From: Flagellimonas marinaquae
GTDB lineage: Bacteria > Bacteroidota > Bacteroidia > Flavobacteriales > Flavobacteriaceae
Assembly (NCBI RefSeq): GCF_003992675.1
Contig: NZ_RZMZ01000004.1
Span: 131,501-195,500 of the forward strand
DNA: 64,000 nt
Direction: 5' to 3'
How positions within the stretch are numbered: position 1 is the first letter of the stretch; each line of letters opens with the position of its first letter. Below the pieces are notes generated by a model. That model worked only from the letters and a program-made list of their open reading frames with translations. It ran no database searches and had not been told where the DNA came from. Positions 2,137 to 38,355 of the stretch are shown in pieces. The translations under genes were made by a program, and so were the position numbers.

Positions 2137-2258
2137 CGGACAAGGGACGGCATAAAGCCGCTCCTTTGTCCCTTTTTATTCCGTTTCCTTGCCGCTCCAA
2201 AATTTTGTCTACCACTTGTTACATGCTCAAATATTGTTTAATTAAAAATTCATTTAAC
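2137..2258 (+). promoter_or_regulatory. Shared leader, copy 1 (before the Lys-rich small protein)
   Basis: ORF-less stretch between the integrase stop and the next ATG. It contains GGACGGCATAAAGCCG (2145-2160, a CGGC/GCCG hairpin), then a block at 2172-2199 with core TTATTCCGTTTCCTTGCCGC, then CAAATATTGTTTAA (2228-2241) near the start codon. The first 24 nt and the 28-nt block are identical, base for base, to the leader at 35214-35272. A diverged version precedes the gene at 38356. Function is inferred only: a common 5' UTR or a promoter/operator of the mobile backbone. Confidence 0.65.
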
Positions 2259-2684
2259 ATGGAAACAAAAACAAAAGAGACCGGAACCAAGAAAACGGTA
2301 ACAAGACAAAAAGCATCCAACAAGGATGTCAAAGACCAACTGACCAAGGAGGCTACTGGTAACGCCAATGGTACTGAAAAGACCAAAGAAGCCAAGGCAC
2401 CGGTGGTGGTTCCCAAAATCAGCATCGACAGCCGGATCCAGAAGTTTGAAAAGTTGAGAGGCTTGGCGACCAACAGGGAACGCCTGAACCAGACCCTTGG
2501 AGAACTCACCAAGTTCAACTACAACCAGGACGGTTCCAGTTCATTTTACATCAGGGATTCCCATGGATTGGAATTCAAGACAACCAACAGCAATCTCATC
2601 AATTTGGTGACCACACAATTGCAGAATACCTTGGAGGAACGAAAGTCGGAGTTTGAGCAGGAGATTCTTGCATTCGAACTATAA
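2259..2684 (+). CDS. Small Lys/Thr-rich protein of unknown function (mobile-element backbone)
   Basis: 141 residues from the ATG at 2259. A longer reading from 2133 would translate the shared leader and is rejected. Residues 1-55 are Lys/Thr/Glu-rich and probably disordered. Residues about 60-141 look folded, with RIQKFEKLRGLATNRERLNQTL (two helices, split RIQKFEKLRG and LATNRERLNQ), a short beta segment SSSFYIRDSHGLEFKTTN and a final helix. I recognise no domain. It follows the integrase, shares its leader with the DUF932 gene 33 kb away, and ends at a good terminator. That suggests it belongs to the original element and not to the metal cargo. A role in DNA binding or element maintenance is possible but not shown. 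Confidence 0.75.
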   Translation: METKTKETGTKKTVTRQKASNKDVKDQLTKEATGNANGTEKTKEAKAPVVVPKISIDSRIQKFEKLRGLATNRERLNQTLGELTKFNYNQDGSSSFYIRDSHGLEFKTTNSNLINLVTTQLQNTLEERKSEFEQEILAFEL

Positions 2685-2702
2685 TAGATCAAAAAATCTC
2701 AA

Positions 2703-2737
2703 AACCCATTCGATAATTCGGATGGGTTATTTTTTTG
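2703..2737 (+). terminator. Intrinsic terminator of the small-protein gene
   Basis: AACCCATTC pairs with GGATGGGTT (one G-T pair) around an 8-nt loop, followed by ATTTTTTT. It closes the integrase-side unit just before the composition changes to the AT-richer metal block. Confidence 0.8.
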
Positions 2738-2940
2738 TCAATCCAAAACTGCAAATGCAATTTTATTGACAAATAAAAATCGTCCAATAAATAGCCCGAC
2801 AAAAGGGAGGGTTACACATATAACAACAGCTTTTGTTTTTCAAGGTTTTTTTGCGACATAAAACATTCCCTTATAAAACTTTTCATCGATTGATTGCCTT
2901 AAACTTAACTTAAAGTAATGCGGTTAATTCCAAAATTTTG

Positions 2941-2948
2941 TAATTTTG
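2941..2948 (+). promoter_or_regulatory. -7 element TAATTTTG in front of the metal block
   Basis: TAATTTTG matches the Bacteroidetes -7 consensus TAnnTTTG. It ends only five bases before the preferred ATG at 2954, so the transcript would be leaderless or nearly so. The same spacing is seen at the DUF6660 gene (19384-19396). No convincing -33 TTTG was seen. Confidence 0.4.
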
Positions 2949-2953
2949 CAACG

Positions 2954-3373
2954 ATGAAAGAGGTTTTCCATAAAATATTATCTATTTCGATGGCTTTTGT
3001 AGTGATGTTCTCTACAATGTCATTTACTGTGGATATGCATTATTGTGGGGACAATTTGGTCGATTTTAGTTTATTCTCAAAAGCTGAAGGTTGTGGAATG
3101 GAAAAAGCACAACCAGTTAAAAGTTGTGAGAATCCTAAAATGACTGAGAAATCTTGTTGTTCTGACGAGCAAATTGTAAAGGAAGGCAAAGACGACCTTA
3201 AAATATCTTTTGACACGCTTTCTTTTGAGCAGCAAACGTTCATCGCTGCTTTTACATACTCTTATATAAACCTATTTGAAGGAACCGAATCTGAAGAAGT
3301 TCCTTTTGAAGATTACCCGCGACCCTTTGTCAAACGGGATGTGCAAGTGCTGCACCAGACTTTCTTAATTTGA
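2954..3373 (+). CDS. HYC_CC_PP-type secreted metal-locus protein
   Basis: 139 residues from the ATG at 2954 (MKEVFHKILSISM). An in-frame ATG at 2918 would put the -7 element inside the gene. An N-terminal hydrophobic segment (about 5-25) looks like a signal or anchor. The motifs MHYCGD, EGCGME, ESC-type KSCENP and KSCCSDE follow, and the tail ends with a proline-bearing VPFEDYPRPF segment. This HYC...CC...PP pattern is the signature of a small family regularly found beside Bacteroidetes copper pumps. The Cys residues suggest metal binding in the periplasm, but the biochemical role is unknown. First gene of the copper block, 108 nt before cusA. Confidence 0.75.
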   Translation: MKEVFHKILSISMAFVVMFSTMSFTVDMHYCGDNLVDFSLFSKAEGCGMEKAQPVKSCENPKMTEKSCCSDEQIVKEGKDDLKISFDTLSFEQQTFIAAFTYSYINLFEGTESEEVPFEDYPRPFVKRDVQVLHQTFLI

Positions 3374-3394
3374 TTTGTTAGATTTTTTGAATGA

Positions 3395-3421
3395 AGCCCA
3401 ATAGCTATGCTGTAGTGGGCT
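3395..3421 (+). other. Hairpin in the cusA leader
   Basis: AGCCCA (3395-3400) pairs with TGGGCT (3416-3421) in the 108-nt gap before cusA. No T-run follows, so a simple terminator is unlikely. It may be an mRNA stability or attenuation element. Confidence 0.35.
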
Positions 3422-3481
3422 AAAACTCGTGTTTGCCATATTCTGCAACACGTAATTCCAATTATCTAATAATCAAATGCT

Positions 3482-6400
3482 ATGCTGAATAAGAGCATTA
3501 AATTTCTCATAGAAAACAAACTTGTTGCCGTTCTACTACTTGCCCTATTCGTGGGTTGGGGCGTGGTCAACGCACCCTTTAATTGGGAAACGGGCTTTTT
3601 ACCTACAGACCCAGTTGCCGTTGATGCCATACCTGATATTGGCGAGAACCAGCAAATTGTTTTTACCAAGTGGCAAGGGCGCTCGCCACAGGACATTGAA
3701 GACCAAATCACATATCCTCTTACCACTTCGCTTCTCGGTATTCCAGGCGTGAAAACCATCCGTAGTTCTTCTATGTTTGGATTTTCAAGCATCTATATCA
3801 TTTTTGAAGAAGACATCGAGTTCTACTGGTCACGCAGTCGCATACTTGAAAAACTGAACTCACTTCCTGCAAACCTATTACCTGATGGTGTCAATCCATC
3901 ATTAGGGCCAGATGCCACAGGTCTTGGACAGATATTTTGGTACACGCTGGAAGGTCGTGATAAAGATGGCAACGTTACTGGCGGTTGGGATTTACAGGAA
4001 TTGCGTAGTATTCAGGATTACTATGTGAAATATGGGTTATCATCTGCAAGCGGTGTTTCTGAAGTGGCTTCCATAGGTGGGTATGTTCAGGAATACCAAG
4101 TGGATATTGACCCAGAAAAAATGCGCCAGTACAATGTAAGTATGGGCGATGTGGTCAAGGCTGTAAAGCAGAGCAATCAGGACATAGGCGCACAAACCCT
4201 CGAAATCAATCAAGCTGAATATCTCGTGCGCGGATTGGGTTATGTAAAATCTATCGCAGATATCGAAAATGCCGTGGTTGATTCAGAAAACTTTACTTCT
4301 ATTCGTATCAAGGACGTGGCAAATGTTCATTTGGGACCTGCTACCAGACGTGGAATTCTCGACAAGGAAGGTGCCGAAGTCGTAGGTGGTGTCGTAGTTG
4401 CTCGCTACGGTGCAAATCCGCTGGAAGTCATTAACAATGTTAAGGCACAAATTGCTGAAATAAGCGCTGGACTTCCCACAAAAACATTGAAAGATGGTCG
4501 CACTTCACAAGTAACCATCGTACCGTTTTATGACCGTACCGAACTCATACAAGAAACGTTGGGCACGCTCAACGAAGCCTTGACTTTGGAAATCTTGATT
4601 ACCATTTTGGTCATTATCATAATGGTGTTCAACCTACGTGCATCCATCCTTATTTCAGGATTGTTGCCCGTAGCCGTCTTGATGGTTTTTATCACGATGA
4701 AGCTCTTTAATGTAGATGCAAACATCGTCGCCCTTTCGGGTATTGCCATTGCCATCGGTACAATGGTGGACGTAGGCGTGATACTCGCCGAAAATATGAT
4801 TCGGCACTTGGAAGATAAAAAGTTACGCCTTAATGAAAACGGTAACGAGTACACAACGAACGAAATCATCTACAACGCAACGGCTGAAGTTTCTGGTGCT
4901 ATTCTAACAGCTGTTTTAACGACTATTATTAGTTTCCTGCCTGTATTCACGATGATTGGTGCCGAAGGAAAACTGTTCCGCCCGCTTGCATTTACTAAAA
5001 CAATGGCACTCACGGCATCCCTTATCATTGCGCTGTTTATAATTCCACCCATTGCGGCATTCCTTTTCCGTAAGACGAATGTGCGTGAACGGACACAGCA
5101 TGCCATCAATGGCTTACTTGTTTTATTGGGAATTCTCGCCATCGTTTACGGCTTTTGGTTGGGGCTAATTCTTATCGCTTTTGCTGCAACATCATTTTTA
5201 AAAATGCGCGATACGCTTTCGCGAAAGCGTAAAAACCTTCTGTACATCATCATTTCATCGGTCGCCATCGTATTCCTACTCGCTACCTATTGGCGACCAT
5301 TAGGCTTTGACCGAAGTATTGTGATGAACTTGATATTTGTGTCCATTATCTGTTTTGGACTACTTGGTGTGTTCTCGATTTTCAGGATATACTATGAGCG
5401 TATTTTGCGATGGGCACTTCAAAACCGATATCTATTCTTAATCGTTCCGGCTACGGTGCTCACGTTGGGTATCATTATTATGCGAAACACAGGCAAAGAG
5501 TTTATGCCAGCGCTGAATGAAGGTTCATTCTTGCTGATGCCTACATCCTTACCACACGCAGGCGTTGAAGAAAACAAACGTGTTCTACAACAACTTGATA
5601 TGGCTGTGGCGAGCATCCCTGAAATCGAAACCGTAGTAGGAAAAGCGGGAAGAACGGAAAGCGCACTCGACCCAGCACCGCTCTCGATGTATGAGAATGT
5701 CATTCAGTATAAATCGGAATATATGCGGAATAGTTATGGCGAGCGACAACGCTACAAGGTCAATGACGATGGATTATTTGTACTGAAGAATAACAAATTC
5801 ATTATCAACCCAAACAATGAGATAGATGAAGGCGTCAACTATGCCGAAACATCGCTAAAAACGACTGCTACACGCGAAGACTTGATTGAAGATGACGATG
5901 GCGAGTACTACCGAAACTGGCGACCGGACATTGAAAGTCCAGATGATATTTGGAACGAGATAGTTCGAGTAACCAAATTACCAGGCGTTACATCGGCACC
6001 CAAGCTGCAACCTATCGAAACACGACTGGTAATGCTACAAACAGGTATGCGCGCACCTATGGGCATCAAGGTAAAAGGTCCCGATTTAAAGTCTATTGAA
6101 AGTTTTGGACTGGAATTGGAAGATATCCTAAAACAAGCCGAAGGCGTTAAGGAACAAGCTGTTTTTGCAGACCGAATCGTGGGCAAACCCTACTTGCTCA
6201 TAGATATTAAGCGAGACCAATTGGCTCGATATGGTGTGTCCATAATGGAAGTTCAGGAAATCCTTCAAGTGGCCGTGGGCGGAATGCCACTCACGCAAAC
6301 TGTTGAAGGTCGTGAGCGTTATGCGGTGCGTGTGCGTTATCCACGAGAGTTACGGGCAGACCCAGACGACCTTAAAAATATCTATGTTCCAGTGGAAAAA

Positions 6401-7234
6401 GGTAGCCCTGTACCGTTGGGCGAATTGGTAGATATACGCTACGAACAAGGTCCACAAGTCATTAAAAGTGAAGACACTTTTCTAATTGGCTACGTGCTGT
6501 TTGATAAACTCGACGGCTTTGCCGAAGTGGATGTGGTAGAAAATGCCCAAGCGCTGATTCAACAAAATATTGATAAGGGTTCGCTGGTCGTACCACAGGG
6601 CGTGAGCTATCGTTTTACGGGAACATATGAAAATCAGTTACGGGCAGAAAAAACGCTATCGGTTGTCGTACCGCTTTGTTTGCTCGTCATTTTCTTGATT
6701 TTGTATTTCCAGTTCAGGTCCGTCTCTACGTCTCTTATGGTGTTTACTGCAATCGCCGTGGCCTTTGCAGGTGGCTTTATAATGATATGGCTGTACGGGC
6801 AAGATTGGTTTTTCAACTTCGGCTTTTTTGGCGAAAATCTGCGGGACTTGTTCAATATGAAAACCATCAATTTAAGTGTGGCCGTTTGGGTAGGTTTTAT
6901 TGCCCTCTTCGGTATTGCTACGGATGATGGTGTGGTAATGGCCACCTATTTAGACCAATCTTTCAAAAGCAACGAACCAGACAATAAAAAGGGCATTCGT
7001 CTCGCCACTTTGGAAGCCGCAGGTAAACGCATTCGTCCATGTTTAATGACTACTGTAACTACGGTGTTGGCACTACTTCCCGTACTCACATCCACAGGAA
7101 AGGGAAGCGATATAATGATACCGATGGCAATTCCCATTTTTGGCGGAATGATAATCGATGTCACGTCCTATTTCCTATTGCCAGTCCTGTACAGCTGGAA
7201 AAAGGAATACCAACTTAAAAAAGCAAACAGATGA
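3482..7234 (+). CDS. cusA: CusA-type Cu(I)/Ag(I) RND efflux pump, inner-membrane subunit
   Basis: 1250 residues; a full RND permease with TM1 at about 10-30, two periplasmic porter regions, and the middle (about 365-560, 590-670) and C-terminal (about 1060-1240) membrane bundles. The TM4 motif near residues 419-438 reads GIAIAIGTMVDVGVILAEN. It lacks the DFGxxxDGAV form of divalent-cation pumps and is closer to the CusA (monovalent copper/silver) subclass. Family knowledge: proton-driven trimer that exports metal from the periplasm through CusB and CusC. It is longer than E. coli CusA because of an insert near 540-640. The tolC gene overlaps its stop by 4 nt (ATGA); the adaptor lies 10 kb further on. 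Palindrome CGCTTTCGCGAAAGCG is embedded at 5213-5230. Confidence 0.93.
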   Translation: MLNKSIKFLIENKLVAVLLLALFVGWGVVNAPFNWETGFLPTDPVAVDAIPDIGENQQIVFTKWQGRSPQDIEDQITYPLTTSLLGIPGVKTIRSSSMFGFSSIYIIFEEDIEFYWSRSRILEKLNSLPANLLPDGVNPSLGPDATGLGQIFWYTLEGRDKDGNVTGGWDLQELRSIQDYYVKYGLSSASGVSEVASIGGYVQEYQVDIDPEKMRQYNVSMGDVVKAVKQSNQDIGAQTLEINQAEYLVRGLGYVKSIADIENAVVDSENFTSIRIKDVANVHLGPATRRGILDKEGAEVVGGVVVARYGANPLEVINNVKAQIAEISAGLPTKTLKDGRTSQVTIVPFYDRTELIQETLGTLNEALTLEILITILVIIIMVFNLRASILISGLLPVAVLMVFITMKLFNVDANIVALSGIAIAIGTMVDVGVILAENMIRHLEDKKLRLNENGNEYTTNEIIYNATAEVSGAILTAVLTTIISFLPVFTMIGAEGKLFRPLAFTKTMALTASLIIALFIIPPIAAFLFRKTNVRERTQHAINGLLVLLGILAIVYGFWLGLILIAFAATSFLKMRDTLSRKRKNLLYIIISSVAIVFLLATYWRPLGFDRSIVMNLIFVSIICFGLLGVFSIFRIYYERILRWALQNRYLFLIVPATVLTLGIIIMRNTGKEFMPALNEGSFLLMPTSLPHAGVEENKRVLQQLDMAVASIPEIETVVGKAGRTESALDPAPLSMYENVIQYKSEYMRNSYGERQRYKVNDDGLFVLKNNKFIINPNNEIDEGVNYAETSLKTTATREDLIEDDDGEYYRNWRPDIESPDDIWNEIVRVTKLPGVTSAPKLQPIETRLVMLQTGMRAPMGIKVKGPDLKSIESFGLELEDILKQAEGVKEQAVFADRIVGKPYLLIDIKRDQLARYGVSIMEVQEILQVAVGGMPLTQTVEGRERYAVRVRYPRELRADPDDLKNIYVPVEKGSPVPLGELVDIRYEQGPQVIKSEDTFLIGYVLFDKLDGFAEVDVVENAQALIQQNIDKGSLVVPQGVSYRFTGTYENQLRAEKTLSVVVPLCLLVIFLILYFQFRSVSTSLMVFTAIAVAFAGGFIMIWLYGQDWFFNFGFFGENLRDLFNMKTINLSVAVWVGFIALFGIATDDGVVMATYLDQSFKSNEPDNKKGIRLATLEAAGKRIRPCLMTTVTTVLALLPVLTSTGKGSDIMIPMAIPIFGGMIIDVTSYFLLPVLYSWKKEYQLKKANR
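5213..5230. repeat. Intragenic palindrome, copy 1
   Basis: ACGCTTTCGCGAAAGCGT, a perfect 18-bp palindrome inside cusA, read as LSRKRK between two membrane segments. Confidence 0.85.
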
Positions 7235-8448
7235 AAAAATTAAAATATATACTGGTGTTCTTGTTTGTTACTGCTTTCGCGAAAGCGCAACAATTACAAT
7301 CCTACATTCAGGAAGCTGAAGCCAACAATCCAGAAATTCAAGCCTTTGAATTGCGATACAACATCGCCGAAGAAAAGGTAAACGAAGCCAACTGGATTCC
7401 AAATACCGAAGTAAGTGCCGGCTACTTTGTGAGCGAGCCTGAAACAAGAGTGGGTGCGCAACGTGCACGAATAGGCGTAAAACAGATGTTGCCGTGGTTC
7501 GGTACTATTACAGCTCGTGAAAATTATGCCACCGCAATGGCAGATGCCGAATATGTGGACATTACGATTGCAAAGCGTAAGCTGGCACTTTCGGTCGCAC
7601 AATCCTATTATCGTCTATTTGCCATAAGAGCCAAGCAAGCCGTACTGGATGAAAATATACAGCTACTGGAAACCTACGAACGACTTGCACTCACATCTGT
7701 AGAAGTGGGCAAAGCGAGTGCCGTAGATGTGTTGCGACTTCAGATTAGACAAAATGAATTACAACAACAAAAGGAAGTGCTGGAAGAAGAATTTACAGCA
7801 GAACAAACGACTTTTAACAATTTGCTCAACCGTGATGCAATGATGACGGTTGACGTTGTTCCAGAAATGGAAATTCCACAGGAAGACCCATTTTATACTA
7901 ATGAAGCGCTATCACTCAATCCCGAACTGCTCAAATATGACAAACTCTATGAATCGGTAGCACAATCTGAACTGCTCAACCAGCGCGAGAGTTTGCCTAT
8001 GATTGGTTTTGGTTTAGACTACCTGCCCGTAACGGAACGCAGCGATGTCAATTTCAGCGATAATGGGAAAGATGTATTGATGCCGATGGTGTCGGTTTCC
8101 ATCCCCATTTTCAACAATCGCTACAAATCCATTTCAAGGCAAAATGAACTGCGACAGCAAGAAATAGAAACCCAACGGGAACAGCGATTGAATGTGCTGG
8201 AATCCGCTTTCGCGAAAGCGCAATCACAACGTAACCAAGCACGCATAGCATACAACACACAAGCTCGTAACCTGAAACAAGCCAAAGATGCCGAAGAAAT
8301 TCTGGTAAAGAACTATGAGACCGTCACTATCGATTTTAATGATGTGCTGGACATTCAGGAATTGCAATTAAAGTTTCAAATAAACCAAATAGAATCTGTG
8401 AAGACCTACTATGTGCAAAGTACAATCATTAATTATTTAATTAAGTAA
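7231..8448 (+). CDS. TolC-family outer-membrane channel (CusC-like)
   Basis: 405 residues, with a signal peptide ending near AFAKAQ (about 18-22) and two outer-membrane-efflux repeats of long coiled helices (about 25-200 and 225-400). Family knowledge: trimeric outer-membrane duct for RND or other tripartite pumps. The start codon overlaps the cusA stop (ATGA), so the two are translationally coupled and presumably form one pump. The codons at the signal-peptide cleavage region are built from the 14-bp palindrome core at 7273-7286, and a full palindrome lies near the C-terminal helices at 8205-8220. Its first 20 or so nucleotides nearly match those of the czcB gene at 24261. Confidence 0.9.
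   Translation: MKKLKYILVFLFVTAFAKAQQLQSYIQEAEANNPEIQAFELRYNIAEEKVNEANWIPNTEVSAGYFVSEPETRVGAQRARIGVKQMLPWFGTITARENYATAMADAEYVDITIAKRKLALSVAQSYYRLFAIRAKQAVLDENIQLLETYERLALTSVEVGKASAVDVLRLQIRQNELQQQKEVLEEEFTAEQTTFNNLLNRDAMMTVDVVPEMEIPQEDPFYTNEALSLNPELLKYDKLYESVAQSELLNQRESLPMIGFGLDYLPVTERSDVNFSDNGKDVLMPMVSVSIPIFNNRYKSISRQNELRQQEIETQREQRLNVLESAFAKAQSQRNQARIAYNTQARNLKQAKDAEEILVKNYETVTIDFNDVLDIQELQLKFQINQIESVKTYYVQSTIINYLIK
7273..7286. repeat. Intragenic palindrome, copy 2 (14-bp core)
   Basis: GCTTTCGCGAAAGC, flanked by T on the left and G on the right. It encodes the AFAKA part of the predicted signal-peptide cleavage site of the TolC protein. Confidence 0.8.
8205..8220. repeat. Intragenic palindrome, copy 3
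   Basis: CGCTTTCGCGAAAGCG, perfect 16-bp palindrome in the tolC gene, read as SAFAKAQ in a coiled-coil helix. Confidence 0.85.
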
Positions 8449-8451
8449 ACA

Positions 8452-10737: not shown

Positions 10738-10771
10738 AAAAAACGATTAATAACTTTTAAACAAACAAAAA

Positions 10772-11851: not shown

Positions 11852-11854
11852 AGT

Positions 11855-11912: not shown

Positions 11913-11985
11913 CACAATAAAAAATATTAGAAAGATGAATAATGATATAAATGAATTTGAGTAAAAATTCTTAAAAATAAACAGG

Positions 11986-29587: not shown

Positions 29588-29624
29588 AAGCGAAATGTAG
29601 ACTTTATTTTTAAGGTATATGCAA

Positions 29625-29958: not shown

Positions 29959-30231
29959 GCGTCCCAAGAAAGCAAATCGGAAAATTGCCCCTTGATTTCA
30001 GTAAATTTTTAGTTGAACGCTCAATTTTTCAGAGTAGCACATAACTTCTAACGGAACTCCATTCGGTATATATCCTCTATTTGGTGGTGCAAGATTTGAT
30101 AATCCTTTAGCCTATCAAACCGATTAAAGGTGCCCTGCAATAATATTTTTTAGAAAGAATAGACCAAATATTTTCATAAAAAGATGCTATTGTTACGTAA
30201 AGTATTTTTTTAAGGAACCAGTGATACATTA
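29959..30231. other. Intergenic stretch with a decayed coding trace
   Basis: 273 nt between the broken merR gene and the NHL gene. A short open stretch at about 30049-30127 reads TPFGIYPLFGGARFDNPLAY and ends in a stop. It looks like a protein tail, but no start or family is evident. No terminator was recognised. Confidence 0.3.
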
Positions 30232-31384: not shown

Positions 31385-31878
31385 TGAATCCGTTCCATTT
31401 TTGATATCGTAAGTATCCATTGGCTTGGAAGATTGTCATCTTCCACATCGTCCACCGTGCCACTCACCGTGACGTTGCCCTCCGTCATTTTTTCAAGATA
31501 TTCTGTAGAAGTGGCCTGCGACACCAAAAATTGTTCCCGGGGGGTGGCTACCAACCATTGGCCATTTTCTTTACTTAGTTTGCCCGAAACGGTCACCGCT
31601 GCTTTTTTAGCGGAAAACCCGTTCTTTTTCACTTCCTCTTGAATGGCCCCCAAAGTGAGTTCGTTCTCAGCGGCCAGGTCAAGATAGGCCCTTCCATCAT
31701 TGAGACTGACACGGACCTTCTGAAGACCGTCCATCTTTTTCAGTCCCCGTTCCAGGCCATAGGCACAAGGGGCACAATCCATCCCGTACACTTCCTGGTC
31801 CACGTAGGTTATCTGGGCGTTTAGAGTGCCCACAACCAACAAGACCATTATTATCACCAATACACTATTTTTCATCAT
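31381..31878 (-). CDS. Periplasmic HMA-domain protein
   Basis: 165 residues from the ATG at 31878. A signal peptide (about 1-22, ending TLNAQ) is followed by an HMA domain (about 25-92) with GMDCAPCAYGLERGL, the metal-binding CxxC. A second domain (about 95-165) of beta strands follows (VTVSGKLSKENGQWLVATPR, VTVSGTVDDVED) and may be an OB fold. The protein would carry a thiophilic metal in the periplasm and pass it to the MerT-like protein encoded next, whose ATG overlaps its stop. No close analogue with this two-domain layout is known to me. Confidence 0.82.
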   Translation of the reverse strand: MMKNSVLVIIMVLLVVGTLNAQITYVDQEVYGMDCAPCAYGLERGLKKMDGLQKVRVSLNDGRAYLDLAAENELTLGAIQEEVKKNGFSAKKAAVTVSGKLSKENGQWLVATPREQFLVSQATSTEYLEKMTEGNVTVSGTVDDVEDDNLPSQWILTISKMERIQ

Positions 31879-31906
31879 ACTCAACTTTTTAAAAATTTAT
31901 CGCTAT

Positions 31907-32776
31907 CTATAACCAATAGCTCAGATTTATCGCTACTCGGTATTTTTCCCTTACAGCTCCTGGAGTCAGGTTCTGTACCGCCGGGAACATAGCGCCAAAG
32001 GATATGCCCCATGCACCGTACAGTCCCAAAAAAGATGGGCCGACCAGAACCTTCGTGCTTCTCGTGCCAGAATCGTTCAGGTTTCCCTCATAGATGGCCT
32101 CACCGGGAAACTCGGCCAACGATTCAATGAAAATGCGCCAATCGGGTTTTGGATAATCACCCATAAAAATATTGGGGCGATACCCCACAACGGCAGAGGC
32201 ATAGGGCAAATCCCCCAATTGTTCGCCGTTTTTCCCGAAATAATAGTGGTATCCTCCCCCGAGCCATCCATACCAGGTCCGTGAAGCATAGCCAGTTGAA
32301 ATGGCGGCGTGTACGGATTGGCCGACGTTGACCTGTCCGCGTACATCATCGGTAGGTGTGGAAACACCAAAAACAGCGGTTGACTCAAAGCGCTTGCCCA
32401 CACCAAAGGCATTGGAAAAAAAACGGTACCAAAGAGAAGCCTCGATATCTCCGTTTGCGGGCATATTGCTGTTGCCCCGGGTCCTCGGTGCGTTATCCAA
32501 ACGCCCGATCATTGTCGGTGTGGTCAAATTGACCTGCAAATCTTCGGTAATTCCATAGGAAAATAGATAACGCAACATATACAAGGTTTCATCTTCCGTG
32601 CTTAGGGTCATACCAGCCACATTCAGATCCACTCCGCCCTTGGCAAGGGTCGGGGTCTGTAGACCATACAAGGGGCCGTGGCCTTGAGCCACCGCTACCC
32701 CCGTGAAAGCCAATTGGAATATCAATACCAGATAGTTGATTCTTGCCGGTAACTTCGTGATTTTTTTGACAATCAT
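31907..32776 (-). CDS. Outer-membrane beta-barrel protein of the CsoR-led operon
   Basis: 289 residues from the ATG at 32776. The upstream reading would overlap the thioredoxin-like gene. Signal peptide ends near VAVAQG. The mature part alternates amphipathic beta strands (LYMLRYLFSYGITEDLQVNL, ASLWYRFFSNAFGVG, GWLGGGYHYYFGKNG, YRVAINLSYWL) and ends in an aromatic strand, as expected of a 12-14-strand barrel of the transporter or MetA-type kind. Ligand unknown. It lies between a cytosolic thioredoxin-like gene and the periplasmic HMA gene, which points to a metal path through the outer membrane (inference). Confidence 0.75.
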   Translation of the reverse strand: MIVKKITKLPARINYLVLIFQLAFTGVAVAQGHGPLYGLQTPTLAKGGVDLNVAGMTLSTEDETLYMLRYLFSYGITEDLQVNLTTPTMIGRLDNAPRTRGNSNMPANGDIEASLWYRFFSNAFGVGKRFESTAVFGVSTPTDDVRGQVNVGQSVHAAISTGYASRTWYGWLGGGYHYYFGKNGEQLGDLPYASAVVGYRPNIFMGDYPKPDWRIFIESLAEFPGEAIYEGNLNDSGTRSTKVLVGPSFLGLYGAWGISFGAMFPAVQNLTPGAVREKYRVAINLSYWL

Positions 32777-32789
32777 TTTTAGCTGGTTT

Positions 32790-33062
32790 TTATGAGATCT
32801 GTCCAATGCCCGCCTCCGTCAACCTTTCTTTGGTAATGGACGAGTCCTTACAACAATCCAACAATTTTCCGTTGACCGCAACCGCCGGTATTTTATGTAC
32901 TCCGTATTCATTCATCTTAGCGAGACAGGTCTTATCGCTGAATTGCTCAACCAAATCGTATGTGGTTACTTCACATTCATCACAAGCCAGTTCCCGAACC
33001 ATTTCGACGACAGGGTCACAGATCGGACAATTGGCGGTAAAAACTTCTACTTGACGTTTCAT
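32790..33062 (-). CDS. Thioredoxin-like small protein with CPIC motif
   Basis: 90 residues from the ATG at 33062; the longer reading from 33155 would cover the promoter. No signal peptide. A thioredoxin fold is suggested by VEVFTANCPICDPVVEMV (active-site-like CPIC), VTTYDL, the YGVHKIPAVAVNGK cis-proline segment and a final helix. Extra Cys pairs occur (ACDECE, DCCKD). It may reduce or bind a thiophilic metal or a Cys-rich partner in the cytosol. First gene after its own promoter, 157 nt beyond the CsoR-like gene. Confidence 0.8.
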   Translation of the reverse strand: MKRQVEVFTANCPICDPVVEMVRELACDECEVTTYDLVEQFSDKTCLAKMNEYGVHKIPAVAVNGKLLDCCKDSSITKERLTEAGIGQIS

Positions 33063-33122
33063 CTTTCTGTTTTTGAATTGTTTATTTCTTCTTTCCATTG
33101 TCATCGGATCCAAACAACGAAT

Positions 33123-33163
33123 CAAATGTAGGAAGGAGGGTAGGGTGGTCTCCAAACAATATT
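33123..33163 (-). promoter_or_regulatory. Promoter and candidate CsoR-like operator of the thioredoxin/HMA operon
   Basis: On the minus strand, TTTG (33153-33156), a 22-nt spacer and TACATTTG (33123-33130) match the Bacteroidetes promoter. The motif GGGTGGTCTCCAAACAATAT (+ strand, within 33142-33163) overlaps the -33 box. A copy with 3 differences in 22 bases lies at 33618-33639 before the CsoR-like gene. Confidence 0.6.
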
Positions 33164-33218
33164 AAAAAAAAATGTCCCTTTTTTTTGGGCCATTGATCGT
33201 ATTGCTTTTTGGTAAAGT

Positions 33219-33581
33219 TTATTTGTCCCTATAGTCTTCCAGTTTGGCCTTAAGGGAGGCTATTTCCTTCATTTTGTCCGTAAGACTGTCCAATTCCAGA
33301 TTAGGGAACTGCTTCCTGATAAATTCAATACGGTCTTCATTGCCACAATTCCCAGGGCAGGCTTCCACGGTTTCTGAAATCTTGATGGCAAGTGCCTTTC
33401 GATAGGTTTCGTCAAGCAACAGGAAGTAGGCCTTCTCCAGTCCCTTCTGGGCTGCCTTGAACTGTATCAGTATCTTCTCCGGGTCCGTATCCTCATCCAG
33501 CATTTTAACGAGACCGCTTATTTGCCCATTGATACTTTGCAACCTCGTTTTTATGTCCTTGCTTAAATCTCGTGGTATCAT
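33219..33581 (-). CDS. CsoR/RcnR-type metal-responsive repressor (atypical ligands)
   Basis: 120 residues from the ATG at 33581. The all-helical DUF156 fold is recognised from TRLQSINGQISGLVKMLDE, the family signature in helix 1, and KAAQKGLEKAYFLLLDE in helix 2. The usual Cu(I) ligands (Cys in helix 2 before the AAxxxL stretch, then HxxxC) are absent: the positions read ILIQF and ETYRKAL. A C-terminal extension has CPGNCG and a coiled coil. It therefore may sense another metal or use the CPGNC pair. The operator candidate in its own promoter (33618-33639) recurs in front of the next operon, so it probably controls both. Confidence 0.85.
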   Translation of the reverse strand: MIPRDLSKDIKTRLQSINGQISGLVKMLDEDTDPEKILIQFKAAQKGLEKAYFLLLDETYRKALAIKISETVEACPGNCGNEDRIEFIRKQFPNLELDSLTDKMKEIASLKAKLEDYRDK

Positions 33582-33599
33582 TGATTTTGAATTTTGTGA

Positions 33600-33639
33600 C
33601 AAAGTAATGAGGCTCCCAGGGTGGTCCCCAAATAATTTT
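33600..33639 (-). promoter_or_regulatory. Promoter and candidate operator of the CsoR-like gene
   Basis: On the minus strand, TTTG (33629-33632) and TACTTTG (33600-33606) lie about 22 nt apart. The motif GGGTGGTCCCCAAATAATTT lies within 33618-33639, in the 64-nt gap after the zinc-ribbon gene. It has the same layout as the promoter at 33123-33163. Confidence 0.55.
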
Positions 33640-33645
33640 TCAAAT

Positions 33646-33855
33646 TTACTCGCAACATAGAGAGCCTTCCTGAACGGATGGACAGGCAACGGTGCCATAC
33701 GAGCAAAAGACACAGCAATCGCCCGCTTTTGGCCTTAAAACCTCCTTGCAATTTTCACAATCGTAAAAGAATTGGCAAGCCGTGGTCGGCATCAGTTCTT
33801 TCTTGCGGTGTCCGCATTTGGGACACGTAATGGTGGATTCTAACACAGTTTTCAT
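33646..33855 (-). CDS. Small Cys-rich zinc-ribbon protein of the mer-like operon
   Basis: 69 residues. A zinc ribbon is formed by CPKCGHRK (11-18) and CENCKE (33-38), followed by the conserved tail GDCCVFCSYGTVACPSVQ with five Cys. The start codon overlaps the merTP stop (TAATG), so translation is coupled. This GDCCVFCSYG protein is a frequent companion of MerTP in Bacteroidetes. It is cytosolic by sequence. Its function is unknown; carrying or buffering of a thiophilic metal is likely. Confidence 0.8.
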   Translation of the reverse strand: MKTVLESTITCPKCGHRKKELMPTTACQFFYDCENCKEVLRPKAGDCCVFCSYGTVACPSVQEGSLCCE

Positions 33856-34457
33856 TATTCGATGATCTTATATCCGGTTTTTTTAATGGCAGATGCTATA
33901 TCATTGGCACTTACCTTACTGTTATCAAACTTTACGACAGTCAGGGATGTCCCATAATTTGCATCTACTTCCAAAATGCCCTCTAGTTTGTTGACCTCGT
34001 TTTCAATATGGGCCTCGCAACCTGCACATGTCATTCCCTCTATGGAATAAGTCAATTCACTTACGTTACTTTCAGATACAAATACGACTTGCTTTTCAAC
34101 ATTGGAGTTGGAATAATACATATGTGAATAGTAAGGGAATGCCAACATTATACCTGCAAAAATGGTAATCAAAAACAGGAAAGTCTTGGATTGTATGAAC
34201 TTAGGTCTATCATCTTCACAGGCGCAATCAATATCCTGTGGACGTGGTTTTAATTTTTGATACCACGCAAATCCAAGAATCAAAACGGTCACACCCATTA
34301 AAATAGGTCTGTACGGCTCTATCCAAGAAAATGTGGAAGCAATTCCAGTAGTGCCGGAAAGCAGAGCCAAGACAGGGGTGATACAGCACAGTGAGGCCAC
34401 GAAAGCTGAAAATAATCCAGTAAATGCCATTCGGTTGGATGTCATCGTTTTTTTCAT
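33855..34457 (-). CDS. merTP: MerTP-type mercuric transport protein (MerT fused to MerP-like HMA)
   Basis: 200 residues from the ATG at 34457, 1 nt after the arsR stop. Membrane helices: about 10-30 (with SLCCITPVLALLSG, the MerT CysCys pair), 38-58 and 95-115. A loop has CACEDDRP. The C-terminal 70 residues form an HMA domain with IEGMTCAGCEAHIENEV (CxxC). Family knowledge: uptake of Hg(II) into the cytosol for reduction by MerA. No MerA or MerB is present in this window, so either the reductase is elsewhere or the substrate is not mercury. Confidence 0.88.
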   Translation of the reverse strand: MKKTMTSNRMAFTGLFSAFVASLCCITPVLALLSGTTGIASTFSWIEPYRPILMGVTVLILGFAWYQKLKPRPQDIDCACEDDRPKFIQSKTFLFLITIFAGIMLAFPYYSHMYYSNSNVEKQVVFVSESNVSELTYSIEGMTCAGCEAHIENEVNKLEGILEVDANYGTSLTVVKFDNSKVSANDIASAIKKTGYKIIE

Positions 34458-34458
34458 G

Positions 34459-34830
34459 TTATGCAATTTTCCTTTCAGAGACCACATTGCTCAAAATAGC
34501 AGCCAAGAACGCTTGGTTTTCCTTTGAAATACTATAAAAGATAGTTTGACCTTCTCTACGGGTGGAAATGACATTTACATCCCTCATCTTACGTAAGTGC
34601 TGGGAAATAGCGGGAACGCTCATTTCCAGAATATCCGCAAAGTCGCAAGGACATAATTCAGTTTCCCGCTGTAACAAAAACAATATCTTAAACCTAACTT
34701 CATTGCCGGCCAGTGCCATAATTTTACTTATGGCTTCAATGGAAGTTGATACAGCGTTCAAATCTTCTTTACAGCGAAGAATTTGAACATGGTCGGCTTC
34801 TGCCCTGATACAACTGGTTTCAAATTTCAT
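34459..34830 (-). CDS. ArsR/SmtB-family metal-responsive repressor
   Basis: 123 residues from the ATG at 34830. The winged helix-turn-helix spans about 35-110: NEVRFKILFLLQRETELCPC, DFADILEMSVPAISQHLRKM, RREGQTIFYSI. The ELCPCD motif in the helix before recognition is the Cys pair used for metal sensing in ArsR/CadC-type proteins. Cys residues in the N-terminal arm (SCIRAE, LRCKED) may complete a thiolate site. It heads the arsR-merTP-zinc-ribbon operon and should repress it through the dyad at 34867-34886. Confidence 0.88.
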   Translation of the reverse strand: MKFETSCIRAEADHVQILRCKEDLNAVSTSIEAISKIMALAGNEVRFKILFLLQRETELCPCDFADILEMSVPAISQHLRKMRDVNVISTRREGQTIFYSISKENQAFLAAILSNVVSERKIA

Positions 34831-34845
34831 ATGTATTCTTTCCGA

Positions 34846-34886
34846 CAAAGTTACATGTATATAATAATTTAAGCAAATACTTAAAT
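34846..34886 (-). promoter_or_regulatory. Promoter and operator of the arsR-merTP operon
   Basis: On the minus strand, TTTG (34874-34877), a 20-nt spacer and TAACTTTG (34846-34853) are a textbook Bacteroidetes promoter, about 16 nt before the ATG. ATTTAAG-N6-CTTAAAT (34867-34886), a perfect 7+7 dyad, covers the -33 box as a repressor site would. Confidence 0.65.
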
Positions 34887-35213
34887 ATGTAATTTCTATC
34901 CACGACCGTTTTTCTTAAGGATGGAATCCAAACGAATGATCTTCTATTGGAGTTTTTGTTCTTTTCCTTAGTATTCTGGTTGGATAAGCTTTTTTGGATT
35001 ATCAATGATCCTTGATTTTAAAGCCTAAGATATATATGCTCAACCCACCACTTGATTCACTTTGCTGGGATAAATCGAAAACATCGGAACAAACTTTTAT
35101 ACTCGGGTCTTTACCCAAGTGGTTCAGATCATATGGTTTTCCACTTTGAATGACACCATGGCCCAACACCCCGACCAATCCTTTGCACCAAGGTAAACGT
35201 CGCATCCTGTCAC

Positions 35214-35325
35214 CGGACAAGGGACGGCATAAAGCCGCCAATCGCTTTTTATTCCGTTTCCTTGCCGCTCCACAGCCTGCCTCCCGTTTGGATTTCCATG
35301 CAAATATTGTTTAACCTTAAATCCA
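35214..35325 (+). promoter_or_regulatory. Shared leader, copy 2 (before DUF932)
   Basis: Bases 35214-35237 equal 2137-2160 and bases 35245-35272 equal 2172-2199. CAAATATTGTTTAA recurs at 35301-35314. It is preceded by about 320 nt without genes between the arsR operator and this point, holding only a small hairpin at 35101-35120. Confidence 0.65.
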
Positions 35326-36168
35326 ATGATTATGTATTTAGACAGATTGCAACAGGACGAGGTCTTCGTACCGACCCAGGTAAGACCGTTAAATGAACTG
35401 ACCCCAATGCCCTCCCGTAAAGGGCTGGAACGCGCCATTGTCAGCAATGGCAAGATTGTCAATATTGTGTCCAAGAGCTATGGGCACATCGCCAACGAGC
35501 TTTTCTTCAAAAAAGCGGAACAGATGCTCATCGATGCGGGTCTTGACTACCACCGCCAGACCATCAACCGCTCGGACCGTACCTTCTGCATGGACTTTAT
35601 CCTTTCCGACAGCTCCCAGTTCTCGGTGGGCAATGGAGAGGATACCATTCTGCCGATGCTGCGGTTTACCAACTCCTACGATGGGAGCGAGCGCACCTCG
35701 GGACATTTTGGGTTCTACCGCCAAGTATGCTCCAATGGCCTGCACGTGGCACAGGCAGAGATTGCCTTTTCCATCAAGCACAGCACCAACGGCGCCCACT
35801 TGATCATGCCCGAGATGGAGGGGCTGTTCAAAAAGTTCATGGACAACGAGTTCTATACCATCTCCGACAGGTTCAGCCAAATGATGGCCGTCGAACTGGT
35901 GGACACCAAGACCTTCGTAAGGGAAGTGCTGGAACGTACCAAACTGTTCCGTTATGAGTGCAGCGACAAGAACGCAAACCCGTCCAAAAAGGCCCGTGAG
36001 GTCATCGACATATTGGACAATGAGGCCGTATTGTTGGGCACTGCCCCAAACCTCTGGTTGGGCTACAATGCCTTCAATGCCGTATTGCACGGTACCCTGA
36101 AACGAAGCTTTTCACGTCAAGAGCGTCTGGACAAACAACTCTTCCAGACCGTCCTTGACATGGCCTAA
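35326..36168 (+). CDS. DUF932 protein (phage/plasmid-like)
   Basis: 280 residues; a second ATG two codons on is equally likely as start. DUF932 covers about 50-275, with GKIVNIVSKSYGHIANELFF, LRFTNSYDGSERTSGHFGFY and CSNGLHVAQAE recognisable. The family is common on phages, plasmids and integrative elements, often single-copy near replication or transfer genes; its function is unknown. Composition is close to the mob genes and unlike the metal block. It follows the shared leader and ends at a strong terminator, so it is a transcription unit by itself. Confidence 0.88.
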   Translation: MIMYLDRLQQDEVFVPTQVRPLNELTPMPSRKGLERAIVSNGKIVNIVSKSYGHIANELFFKKAEQMLIDAGLDYHRQTINRSDRTFCMDFILSDSSQFSVGNGEDTILPMLRFTNSYDGSERTSGHFGFYRQVCSNGLHVAQAEIAFSIKHSTNGAHLIMPEMEGLFKKFMDNEFYTISDRFSQMMAVELVDTKTFVREVLERTKLFRYECSDKNANPSKKAREVIDILDNEAVLLGTAPNLWLGYNAFNAVLHGTLKRSFSRQERLDKQLFQTVLDMA

Positions 36169-36230
36169 GTGTCCCGGTCGGTCATCAAGAGGGCACAACC
36201 CATGAAGGGATCGCCATTGCCAATACATCG

Positions 36231-36263
36231 ACTCCCGGTACCTGAAGTATCGGGAGTTTTTTT
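36231..36263 (+). terminator. Intrinsic terminator of the DUF932 gene
   Basis: ACTCCCGGTAC pairs with GTATCGGGAGT (11 bp, one G-T) around CTGAA, followed by TTTTTTT. Confidence 0.85.
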
Positions 36264-36824
36264 GTTCGGTCATCAAAGCATTTAAATACTATCAGGAATC
36301 GGTCAAACAAGGAAGCCCAACGTCCAGTGCTTTTTCACGTCATCCCCGGCAAACCCTTCTTGGGGCTTTGCTCGTGGATTCCTAAAGCCCTGTCGTTGGT
36401 CTGGTGATTTTAAGGGGTTCATAATAAAAGAAGCCTTTGGTTGTTTTTCGGGGCATCGAAAAACAGGGCAGTGCCCAAGGACTTCCAATCAGGACGCCAT
36501 CCCCTTAGCTCGCTTAACTTTCCGTACGCTCGCACGGGTCTGGGTCGGAAGGAATTCCTAGGGCCCTTATGGAACCCGTCAAGGCCAAGCGGGTTTTGCT
36601 CACAAATAGGGTTTCCACTTCCTAGTTTTTAGCCCTTCGGTAAAAACCACGTCGCAGAGCCTCCCGATTTCCTCCCAAAAGCCTTGACTGAACCCCCTTC
36701 TTTTATTGTGCTGCGCACCCAAGAAGCAAACAAACACCCCTTAAAATCCGCACACAATTGCATGGAGATACGGGGAAATCAGTAACCCGTCTGCCAAGAG
36801 GGCAGGCATTTAAAACCTTTTATT
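36264..36824. other. 560-nt ORF-less region before ssb
   Basis: No reading frame here looks like a protein. A 7-bp hairpin GTTTTTA/TAAAAAC (36625-36647) and CTGCC/GGCAG just before ssb (about 36790-36805) are visible, and the region is rich in CCC/GGG runs. It could hold an origin, oriT or a small RNA. Nothing more specific is supported. Confidence 0.4.
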
Positions 36825-37172
36825 ATGAGCAGTTTAAGAAACAAAGTACAGTTGATCGGTAACGTGGGGCAAGACCCAGTGATCACCAACTTGGAAAATG
36901 ACAAAAAAGTTGCCCGTTTGTCCTTGGCGACCAATGAGCATTACAGGAACAAAAAGGGCGAAAAGGTCACCAATACCGAATGGCACAACGTGACCGCCTG
37001 GGGCAAGACCGCCGACATCATCGAAAAGTTTGTAATCAAGGGAAAGGAACTTGCCATTGAGGGAAAACTGACCTCCCGATCCTATGAGGACAAAGAGGGC
37101 AACAAGCGCCATGTGACCGAAGTGGTAGCGAGTGAGATTTTACTGTTGGGTGGAACCACCAGCGAGGAATAG
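36825..37172 (+). CDS. ssb: Single-stranded DNA-binding protein
   Basis: 115 residues, an OB fold from start to about 105: NKVQLIGNVGQDPVITNL, TNTEWHNVTAWGKTADIIEKF (split TNTEWHNVTAWGKT, ADIIEKF), VIKGKELAIEGKLTSRSY. It is short compared with chromosomal SSB and lacks the acidic C-terminal tip that recruits partners (ends LLLGGTTSEE), as mobile-element SSBs often do. Probably protects single strands during transfer of the element. First of a series of small genes running to radC. Confidence 0.92.
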   Translation: MSSLRNKVQLIGNVGQDPVITNLENDKKVARLSLATNEHYRNKKGEKVTNTEWHNVTAWGKTADIIEKFVIKGKELAIEGKLTSRSYEDKEGNKRHVTEVVASEILLLGGTTSEE

Positions 37173-37242
37173 AGGTTACGGGTGCCCTGTCTTTCTTTGG
37201 ATTGGGCGCCCCATTCCTTTTTTAACCTGTAACAAGAAAAAG

Positions 37243-37692
37243 ATGGAACTCAAAGTCAACGAAATACAGATCAGTTATCGGGAAAAGCTCTCTACCCTCA
37301 AATCCCTGTCGGTGACCAACTCCAAGGAGGTGGCGGAACTGTTGTTCCAAAATTGGGACAATCAGACCATAGGCCTGTACGAAACTTTTAAGATCGTATT
37401 GCTGAACCAGTCCAACAAGGTCAAGGGCATTTATCCGCTCTCCCATGGGGGCATCACGGGAACCTTGGTGGATGTGCGCATCCTGTTTGCCCTAGTACTG
37501 AAAACCCTTTCCGTGGGGGTCATCCTGGCACACAACCATCCCTCTGGGCAGCTCAAGGCAAGTTACCAGGACAAACAATTGACCCAAAAAATCAAAGAGG
37601 CCGCACAGCTTTTTGATGTCAAGGTATTGGACCATATCATTCTGGCACCCGATGGACGGTATTACAGTTTCGCAGATAACGGAATCCTATAA
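37243..37692 (+). CDS. RadC/JAB-domain protein
   Basis: 149 residues from the ATG at 37243. A JAMM metalloprotease-like fold is shown by the metal motif AHNHPSGQLKASYQD (HxHxxxG...D, about 90-106) and the upstream Glu in LYETFKIVLLN. It lacks the N-terminal helix-hairpin-helix of chromosomal RadC, being the short form usual on plasmids and integrative elements. Function is uncertain; in mobile elements it may help with anti-restriction or replication. It lies 70 nt after ssb. Confidence 0.9.
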   Translation: MELKVNEIQISYREKLSTLKSLSVTNSKEVAELLFQNWDNQTIGLYETFKIVLLNQSNKVKGIYPLSHGGITGTLVDVRILFALVLKTLSVGVILAHNHPSGQLKASYQDKQLTQKIKEAAQLFDVKVLDHIILAPDGRYYSFADNGIL

Positions 37693-37703
37693 ATGTTGTA
37701 GAA

Positions 37704-37808
37704 ATGGACGAAAAGACAACAACATCCGAGCCTGAAAATGCAGAAGCATATCAACATGACCCAAGGGACTATCCCGATGGGTTCGATCCGAGCCTTTATG
37801 ATTTGTAA
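37704..37808 (+). CDS. Very small acidic protein
   Basis: 34 residues, MDEKTTTSEPENAEAYQHDP followed by RDYPDGFDPSLYDL. It starts 11 nt after the radC stop, has element-like codon use and is strongly acidic. No family is recognised. It may be a real small protein or a chance frame; its length makes it easy to miss. Confidence 0.45.
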   Translation: MDEKTTTSEPENAEAYQHDPRDYPDGFDPSLYDL

Positions 37809-37833
37809 ACAATGAATTTTTAAACATTGAAAC

Positions 37834-37989
37834 ATGGTCTATTTGAATTTTACAAACCTCGATAGCGAAACCCAGGAACGTTTGCTTTCCAGTTCCAAGG
37901 AAGATGTGGAATATCGTTCCGGGACCGAATTGCGCCAATTTGCAGAAATCCATGATAAGGACTATGAAGCCCTCTTGGGCCTGCCCTGA
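37834..37989 (+). CDS. Small protein ending inside an interspersed repeat
   Basis: 51 residues: MVYLNFTNLDSETQERLLSS, then SKEDVEYRSGTELRQFAEIH, then DKDYEALLGLP. The helix pattern and acidic nature look real. The stop codon TGA is part of the repeat CCCTGAGCGGAGTCGAAGGG (37984-38003), so the original C-terminus may have been longer and cut by the repeat. No family known. It is 25 nt after the preceding small gene and shares its direction. Confidence 0.5.
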   Translation: MVYLNFTNLDSETQERLLSSSKEDVEYRSGTELRQFAEIHDKDYEALLGLP

Positions 37990-38003
37990 GCGGAGTCGAA
38001 GGG
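37984..38003. repeat. Interspersed repeat CCCTGAGCGGAGTCGAAGGG
   Basis: A 20-nt imperfect palindrome of the type scattered through Bacteroidetes genomes. A relative, CCCTGAGCCTGCCGAAGGG, lies at 47041 inside hsdS. Confidence 0.7.
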
Positions 38004-38068
38004 AAGCGATGCGAAATCTATACAATTATGATTTTGTATTTAATATGTGAACCCTAAACACACTATCC

Positions 38069-38097
38069 AAGCCCATCCATTATGATGGGCTTTTTTT
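38069..38097 (+). terminator. Intrinsic terminator after the small-gene cluster
   Basis: AAGCCCATC pairs with GATGGGCTT around CATTAT, followed by TTTTTT. It ends the ssb-radC unit before leader copy 3. Confidence 0.85.
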
Positions 38098-38242
38098 ATG
38101 GGTTCATGGTTTGTTTTTAGGTGGGTCGAACACCCAAAAACCAATTAGGGAAATTCTTGTTTGTAAAGTACTGGGCAACCTCAAAGAATACCTATCCCTT
38201 ATTTGACCGCAAGTTCGCCCTTCAAAAATGTTCCCATCAAAA

Positions 38243-38355
38243 GACTACGGCATAAACCGTTCGTACCTCACTATTTATTCCGTTTCCTTTTGAGCCGAAA
38301 TTTTTGGGAAGTGCGGGGATGCCATCAAATAATTGATAACTTAAAATCATGTATT
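38243..38355 (+). promoter_or_regulatory. Shared leader, copy 3 (diverged)
   Basis: GACTACGGCATAAACCGT (38243-38260) keeps the hairpin of copies 1 and 2 with changed bases, and TTTATTCCGTTTCCTT is conserved near 38274-38289. AT-rich sequence and ATG follow as in the other copies. Confidence 0.5.

Follow-up and report, generated by a model that had tools for sequence, protein, structure and literature searches.

Why should three genes for unrelated proteins, placed along the backbone of one mobile element, each be preceded by a related stretch of non-coding DNA? The question is raised by 64,000 nt of the Flagellimonas marinaquae genome (phylum Bacteroidota; contig NZ_RZMZ01000004.1, positions 131,501 to 195,500), the whole of which is called the window below, and in which a first-pass annotation made from the sequence alone had described a repeated leader of about 120 nt as a possible two-state RNA. 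We consider it very probable that each copy is a single-stranded DNA (ssDNA) promoter for a gene switched on at entry into the recipient. The repeats themselves stand as that annotation gave them: bases 2137-2160 equal 35214-35237 (24 of 24), 2172-2199 equal 35245-35272 (28 of 28), and CAAATATTGTTTAA lies 3′ of these identical blocks of copies 1 and 2, at 2229 and 35301. TTTATTCCGTTTCCTT is found at exactly three places in the window (2175, 35248 and 38274) and, with up to three mismatches, gives seven matches where 1.4 are expected; AAGGGACGGCATAAAGCCG, allowed the same three mismatches, occurs at two places against 0.00 expected. R1, a covariance model that was built on the core of 50 copies, matches the plus strand of the window at these three places and no others, with a weak mirror match (E 0.042) on the opposite strand of copy 3, and the whole genome searched at E 0.001 yields the three copies and none besides. 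The third copy, placed at 38243-38355 and called diverged in the first-pass annotation, is a real copy that does not deserve the adjective: it has the top covariance-model score (71.6 bits), and its GACTA/TTTCC form is frequent among relatives. The copies and the promoters predicted in their left arms are as follows.

2112..2222, plus strand: copy 1, hairpin element; left arm 2112-2145, core 2148-2183, right arm 2187 to about 2220; stem GG(A)CAAGG (2138-2145) / CCTTGCC (2187-2193)
2112..2143, minus strand: predicted promoter in the left arm of copy 1; TTG 2143-2141, 21-nt spacer, -7 box TAGCTTTC at 2119-2112 (5 of 6 positions of TAnnTTTG)
35188..35292, plus strand: copy 2, hairpin element; core 35225-35256, CCTTGCC 35260-35266
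35188..35220, minus strand: predicted promoter of copy 2; TTG 35220-35218, 22-nt spacer, -7 box TACCTTGG at 35195-35188 (5 of 6)
38209..38313, plus strand: copy 3, hairpin element of the GACTA form; CAAAAG 38238-38243 / CTTTTG 38287-38292, core 38248-38282
38209..38240, minus strand: left arm of copy 3; TTG 38240-38238, 21-nt spacer, only a weak -7 box GAACTTGC at 38216-38209 (TAnnTTGY with T to G)

The element is found in other genomes. The exact pattern CGGCATAAANCCG...TTTATTCCGTTTCCTT is present in 25 of 99 relatives (own genome counted), all within the window's genus, and in 11 of 397 family genomes (own included), and a reversed control pattern gave no match in the same relative and family sets. 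With a broader pattern, at least 117 stretches were found in the named genome collection, and the 80 titles listed for them are mainly of Bacteroidota (Flavobacteriia, Algoriphagus, Belliella, Pontibacter, Pedobacter, Olivibacter, Draconibacterium); the Pelotomaculum and Parvularcula bins among the listed matches may be mis-binned. R1 matched 29 of 395 sampled Bacteroidota genomes, and 28 have a recognizable core, genome G821 being left out of the 28 as a match without one. The covariance-model search suggested in the first-pass annotation thus recovered the three window copies together with relatives across Bacteroidota, and since 28 of 395 genomes carry the element, recent duplication in this strain, which that annotation had named as the finding that would count against it, does not account for the copies. 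Its claim of a conserved structured leader common to unrelated genes of the mobile backbone is supported, its two-state RNA is not.

What is conserved is one long imperfect hairpin with covarying arms. Divergent copies keep a long-range stem, CGGCATAA/TTATTCCG, and the outer arms, and the outer stem varies on both sides (CAAAAG/CTTTTG, GCAAGA/TCTTGC, GG(A)CAAGG/CCTTGCC, GCAAGG/CCTTGC). For the analysis of arms and promoters 145 copies were kept, those with N or too near a contig end having been dropped; 25 of 26 listed loci were added (L167 was too near its contig end), and L153 (window copy 3), L171, L181 and L182 were left out by hand. Among the 54 non-redundant copies (less than 75 percent arm identity), arms pair with their own partners at 22.6 and with swapped partners at 12.4; an earlier run on 39 copies, differently scored, gave 26.4 against 17.8. 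A recount that includes L153 and L171 has 55 non-redundant copies, 32 of them with the promoter box described below, and mismatch counts of 37 A.C and 13 G.T. A local CGGC/GCCG hairpin with a pseudoknot between its loop and TTTAT was also considered as the structure and was dropped, as the local hairpin is missing from many divergent relatives.

The mismatches point to the strand under selection. Isolated stem mismatches, read on the plus strand, comprise 37 A.C, which are G.T on the minus strand, against 13 G.T; swapped arms give 505 A.C and 516 G.T in the control, and all swapped pairs 1402 and 1408. The asymmetry persists as the identity cut-off is moved through 90, 75, 65 and 58 percent (G.T to A.C 19:51, 13:37, 10:32 and 8:29; all p < 0.001, with related copies not fully independent), and points to selection acting on the minus strand and not on the mRNA. 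The minus-strand fold is also the more stable in 52 of the 54 copies, a test to which we give little weight because letter shuffles yield 1.5 of the 3.0 kcal/mol difference between minus and plus folds.

Bacteroidota promoters offer a direct comparison for the minus strand of the left arm. In the published text consulted, the promoter of Flavobacterium psychrophilum has TAnnTTTG at -12 to -5, with a TAnnTTGY variant (PMC9723704), and that of Bacteroides has TAnnTTTG and a TTTG at -33 (PMC7366714). By sequence, the left-arm minus-strand boxes are those of such promoters. A -7 box was scored on the minus strand of the left arm, 27-34 nt out from the core, as TAnnTTTG with the TA intact and no more than one mismatch, or as TAnnTTGY. 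It stands at this fixed place in 32 of the 54 non-redundant copies, against 3.3 expected and a maximum of 11 in 500 shuffles, and copies 1 and 2 of the window pass. In the right, gene-ward arm a TA-anchored box occurs in 3 of 54 copies versus 7.2 expected. A TTG precedes the -7 box by 18-23 nt in 22 of the 32 box-bearing copies.

Pairing along the stem follows the same coordinates. In 34 copies, excess pairing (own minus swapped) exceeds zero between -36 and -12, falls to zero or less at -11 to -6 and nowhere else, and turns positive once more from -5; relative to the -7 box the values run +0.36 (-13), +0.26 (-12), -0.01 (-11), -0.16 (-10), -0.11 (-9), -0.04 to 0 (-8 to -6) and +0.30 (-5). The region from -11 to -6 is where sigma opens promoter DNA, and the excess pairing ends at -11 as it would in a pre-melted promoter. 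Read as double-stranded DNA (dsDNA), the left-arm promoter would transcribe in the opposite direction from the gene, and that of copy 1 would fire into the integrase gene; with the minus strand folded back, the left-arm box would be the non-template strand of a promoter running into the gene. The distance from core to ATG is 60-75 nt in 78 of 116 copies (redundant set).

These features suggest the following course of events. In conjugation the minus strand would enter as ssDNA, oriT (origin of transfer) end first, and would fold into the long hairpin. In that fold the non-template strand would be the left arm, minus strand, presenting TTG (-33) and TAnnTTTG (-7) to the host primary sigma factor, and the right arm would be the template. 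With its stem paired as far as -12 but unpaired between -11 and about -6, the promoter would be pre-melted. RNA polymerase could then start about 35 nt before the ATG and transcribe the gene (DUF932, ParB, RadC, ArdC and others) from DNA that is still single-stranded. In dsDNA, where this fold would not form and a degenerate -7 box is all that the gene-ward arm presents, the promoter would be silent. The polymerase or another factor may make an upstream contact at the core, CGGCATA...TATTCC, which lies at about -40 to -60.

Many of the genes behind the element belong to leading-region families. Of 78 non-redundant downstream proteins, 70 were scanned, the ParB-like L005, L009, L017 and L027 and the short L032, L082, L111 and L148 being left out. 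These 70 include 16 ParB_N, 10 RadC, 9 DUF932, 4 ArdcN, 4 DUF6266 and one N6 methylase; the leading-region families (ParB, RadC, DUF932, ArdC) make up 39 matches, and many of the proteins have no Pfam match. By position, then, the element stands before leading genes (SSB, anti-restriction, ParB, DUF932). Orientation was examined through the relaxase gene in 157 elements from 62 genomes, chosen for holding the element, within a 60-kb radius, with all 120 PF03432 rows and, after omission of two short fragments, 132 of the 134 DUF5712 rows. A relaxase gene was found for 118 elements and none for 39. It lies downstream on the same strand in 102 of the 118, upstream on the same strand in 10, downstream on the opposite strand in two and upstream on the opposite strand in four. 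For the closest element-relaxase pair in each genome the downstream, same-strand arrangement holds in 43 of 46 cases, and in 23 of 26 outside the window's genus. With relaxase position as a proxy for a putative oriT, the element would lie in the leading region with its gene pointing to oriT.

A precedent exists in the F plasmid. The methylase, antirestriction, SSB, ParB, PsiB and DUF932 genes of its leading region share the strand of tra and precede traM, and Frpo1 of F lies before ygeA and ygeB, the second of which is, from position and annotation, the DUF932 gene of F. According to the text available, Frpo1 and Frpo2 are required for early expression, and a ygeB deletion could not be made (PMC9849209). 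By structure, position and gene set, the element appears to be an ssDNA promoter of the Frpo kind, apparently undescribed in Bacteroidota. Like Frpo1 and Frpo2 of F and the single-strand initiation (ssi) sites of ColIb-P9, so far as the accessible text describes them, it would lie in the leading region, is predicted to form a transferred-strand hairpin that rebuilds promoter boxes, and is present in more than one copy per element. Like Frpo1 and Frpo2 it is found upstream of ssb or, by position, DUF932 genes, and DUF932 is also downstream of Frpo1; unlike them it has Bacteroidota boxes in place of -35 and -10, and a core, CGGCATA...TATTCC, that spans phyla. Frpo1 and Frpo2 are 90% identical to each other, the Frpo2 region as read has no CGGCATA core, and the element is not a recognizable relative of either in sequence. 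R1 gave no match in the F leading region, a weak test in that R1 also misses F's own copy of the core. That copy, CTTTCGCGGCATA...TATTCCACG, lies in the leading region of F (NC_002483) before a DNA methylase gene at about 54.0 kb (L190:6014), apart from Frpo1 and Frpo2, and is the one place in 20.5 kb of F at which a relaxed core pattern matches. Its folded strand would be the transferred strand (T-strand), because the leading region enters first according to the text available (PMC9849209). It has no recognizable -10; it is possible that it represents a third ssDNA promoter, or an ssi site, in F.

Other published systems come close in part. Samuel et al. (2024) predicted many Frpo-like promoters from structure and the E. 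coli -35/-10 consensus, and their candidates, as the main text presents them, resemble the element in being predicted ssDNA promoters in leading regions (PMC11541004). The string 'Bacteroid' has no occurrence in that main text. The EGeRS of pLS20-type plasmids are likewise repeated structured sequences before establishment genes of conjugative plasmids; unlike us, their authors, in the text available, identify no promoter within the folded sequence and dispute that it is an ssDNA promoter (PMC8708921). In the accessible parts of the cited literature, ssDNA promoters are demonstrated for enterobacterial plasmids (F, ColIb-P9) only. No report of ssDNA promoters in Bacteroidota or of this core was found in a search outside which lay most subscription papers, preprints and supplements, so an earlier description is possible. 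The first-pass annotation had known of no described element of this pattern, and neither Rfam nor the literature within reach supplied one.

The hairpin is also found in other phyla. Searches of named plasmids with copy 3 and with L087 gave six and four records, all short matches, with no Bacteroidota record except one Persicobacter at E 3. A Corynebacterium plasmid match opened the comparison: the hairpin of Corynebacterium callunae pCC2 has the same core, and the minus strand of its left arm reads TTGACA-N16-TAGAAT. The related form TCAAG..CTTTCGCGGCATA...TATTCCACG..CTTGAC occurs on plasmids of Actinomycetota, Bacillota and Pseudomonadota and in 12 IMG/VR contigs, and the core CGGCATA...TATTCC has been found in four phyla. 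Similarity to the Serratia copy was found in 3,381 of 5,426 E. coli genomes, with 4,890 of 4,944 places plasmid-borne; nearly all of these records are at 60-80 percent identity, and two (L203, L205) were inspected. The plasmid copies precede DNA methyltransferase genes (L184, L187, L188) or a DprA/ArdC/SSB/ParA gene run (L186). Their arms pair at 23.9 with their own partners and 12.4 when swapped, and the minus strand of the left arm is sigma70-like: a TT-anchored -35 and a TA-anchored -10 at a spacing of 15-19 occur in 16 of 27 distinct copies (4.0 expected; 12 versus 3.8 expected in 22 non-redundant copies), with the -35 at the same place in 15 of the 16. Eleven left arms reach 8 of 12 box matches against 0.9 expected, and two right arms do. 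A relaxase gene lies downstream on the same strand in all five plasmids in which one was located (Oscillibacter pOBV01, pCC2, a Pseudomonas aeruginosa IncP plasmid, a Bordetella pseudohinzii plasmid and Corynebacterium stationis pCstat1). We lean slightly towards the view that a single ancient hairpin module, spread horizontally, provides conjugative elements of at least four phyla with their ssDNA promoter, the stem boxes having been rewritten for the local sigma factor and the near-invariant CGGCATA...TATTCC apex kept. On this view, since the apex is kept while the stem boxes change, it would probably be read by something common to all hosts, either RNA polymerase itself or a protein travelling with the DNA. 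A short searchable core of this kind would mark leading regions in many phyla and point to the T-strand and oriT, and it would tag uncharacterized genes expressed first in the recipient, likely anti-defence genes. The element also offers a way to test how a folded single strand is read by RNA polymerase.

Several observations weigh against an ssDNA promoter. The transferred strand is predicted to fold into a stem-loop that rebuilds promoter boxes in the majority of copies, not in all: 22 of 54 non-redundant copies have no TA-anchored box in the tested window (by eye, some have one further out), copy 3 of our own window fails the -7 box criterion, and 10 of the 32 box-bearing copies have no TTG at the expected place. 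Excess pairing is low (+0.05 to +0.11) at -31, -30, -24, -23, -18 and -17 as well. The minus strand of copy 1 barely beats shuffles in folding (z -0.9; -2.5 and -2.6 for copies 2 and 3), and the plus strands of copies 1-3 fold too (z -1.8, -1.1, -2.5). In the plasmid set, the left arm lacks a TA-anchored -10 in 11 of 27 copies, those of F, E. coli, Serratia, Burkholderia and Bordetella among them, such boxes stand on 7 of 27 right arms (3.5 expected), and the mismatch asymmetry, in the same direction, is not significant (18:9, p 0.12, control 314:237). Finally, 16 of 118 elements show another relaxase arrangement, co-oriented backbone genes could yield part of the relaxase-position signal, and we infer the strand transferred by these integrative and conjugative elements (ICEs) from gene order.

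A different function for the same folded strand is conceivable, though unlikely: the hairpin could be a single-strand initiation site at which RNA polymerase or a primosome primes synthesis of the complementary strand, with expression of the adjacent gene as a by-product. Selection on the minus strand and its folding would fit such a site, small 5-8 kb plasmids carry similar matches too, and Masai and Arai (1997), in the title of their Frpo paper, reportedly name both promoter and priming. Such a site would leave unexplained the fixed distance to the ATG (78 of 116), the presence of several copies per element, each before its own gene, and the direction into that gene.

In line with the two-state RNA of the first-pass annotation, a structured mRNA leader was considered as well, either riboswitch-like or the target of a shared RNA-binding regulator. 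The plus strand is able to fold as RNA, the position before start codons is conserved, and Bacteroidota cis-regulatory RNA motifs in Rfam are likewise structured leaders before unrelated genes. We nevertheless regard this as very improbable. An mRNA fold predicts the reverse of the observed mismatches (G.T 13 versus A.C 37 on the mRNA strand), the local hairpin on which the two-state model depended is not conserved, the antisense promoter boxes are left unexplained, and the predicted start lies inside the right arm, so that the mRNA would not contain the hairpin. At gathering score, Rfam finds in the whole window only the tRNAs and a distant DUF805b motif, and a relaxed threshold over 34900-39100 gives no credible match near copies 2 and 3. 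A dsDNA operator, in which a shared repressor would bind the palindrome and the left arm would hold a conventional promoter directed leftward, is likewise very improbable: as dsDNA, too, the left arm reads as a good promoter on its minus strand, but that of copy 1 would send antisense transcripts into the integrase gene, which ends at 2085, many other copies have a tandem upstream gene (no tally was made), and neither arm covariation without sequence conservation nor the mismatch bias is explained.

The remaining landmarks of the window are these.

401-577: tRNA-Ser and tRNA-Pro
775-2085: tyrosine integrase
2259..2684, plus strand: 141-aa protein downstream of copy 1, without Pfam match
35326..36168, plus strand: DUF932 protein, alternative start maybe 35332
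36825..37172, plus strand: single-strand binding protein SSB
37243..37692, plus strand: RadC-like JAB protein
38356..38535, plus strand: 59-aa protein downstream of copy 3, resembling by eye the L081 and L099 proteins
38838..38872, no strand assigned: conserved non-coding block (AGCAAGAGGGTA) before the mob genes, putative oriT
39595..40614, plus strand: DUF5712 relaxase
40626..42221, plus strand: Type IV coupling protein
61262-61296, minus strand: Rfam DUF805b RNA motif, just over gathering score

The tRNA and integrase region is the probable integration end of the ICE. Of 10 fetched relatives, 7 keep the AGCAAGAGGGTA block in front of the mob genes, and an inverted repeat adjoins it; 38780-38872 is the putative oriT of DUF5712-relaxase elements. 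A weak fourth relative of the leader had been proposed at 38780-38850, where the model has no match; this stretch adjoins the conserved block just before the mob genes and resembles an oriT. Two kinds of downstream protein without a Pfam match recur, one of 141 aa (LDDRIQKFEKL) and one of 59 aa (WIFRYEY), and proteins sharing the LDDRIQKFEKL stretch follow the element at other loci too. Both kinds are candidate early or anti-defence proteins.

A few copies depart from the usual form. In L123 (element at 2125-2192, minus strand) the arms are like those of Belliella copies but swapped and inverted, the core direction is kept, and GGAAA replaces GACTA. The Bacteroidales-type copies L037, L048, L072 and L075 lie about 240 nt before DUF6266-like genes, compared with the usual 70 nt or so before leading-type genes, and L120 and L127 have the same spacing of about 240 nt. 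L220, in Bacteroidota genome G584, is the sole CTTTCG-type core in 296 Bacteroidota genomes and enters no count; its left arm has a Bacteroidota-like TACCTTCG box, and the CTTTCG type is otherwise seen in other phyla.

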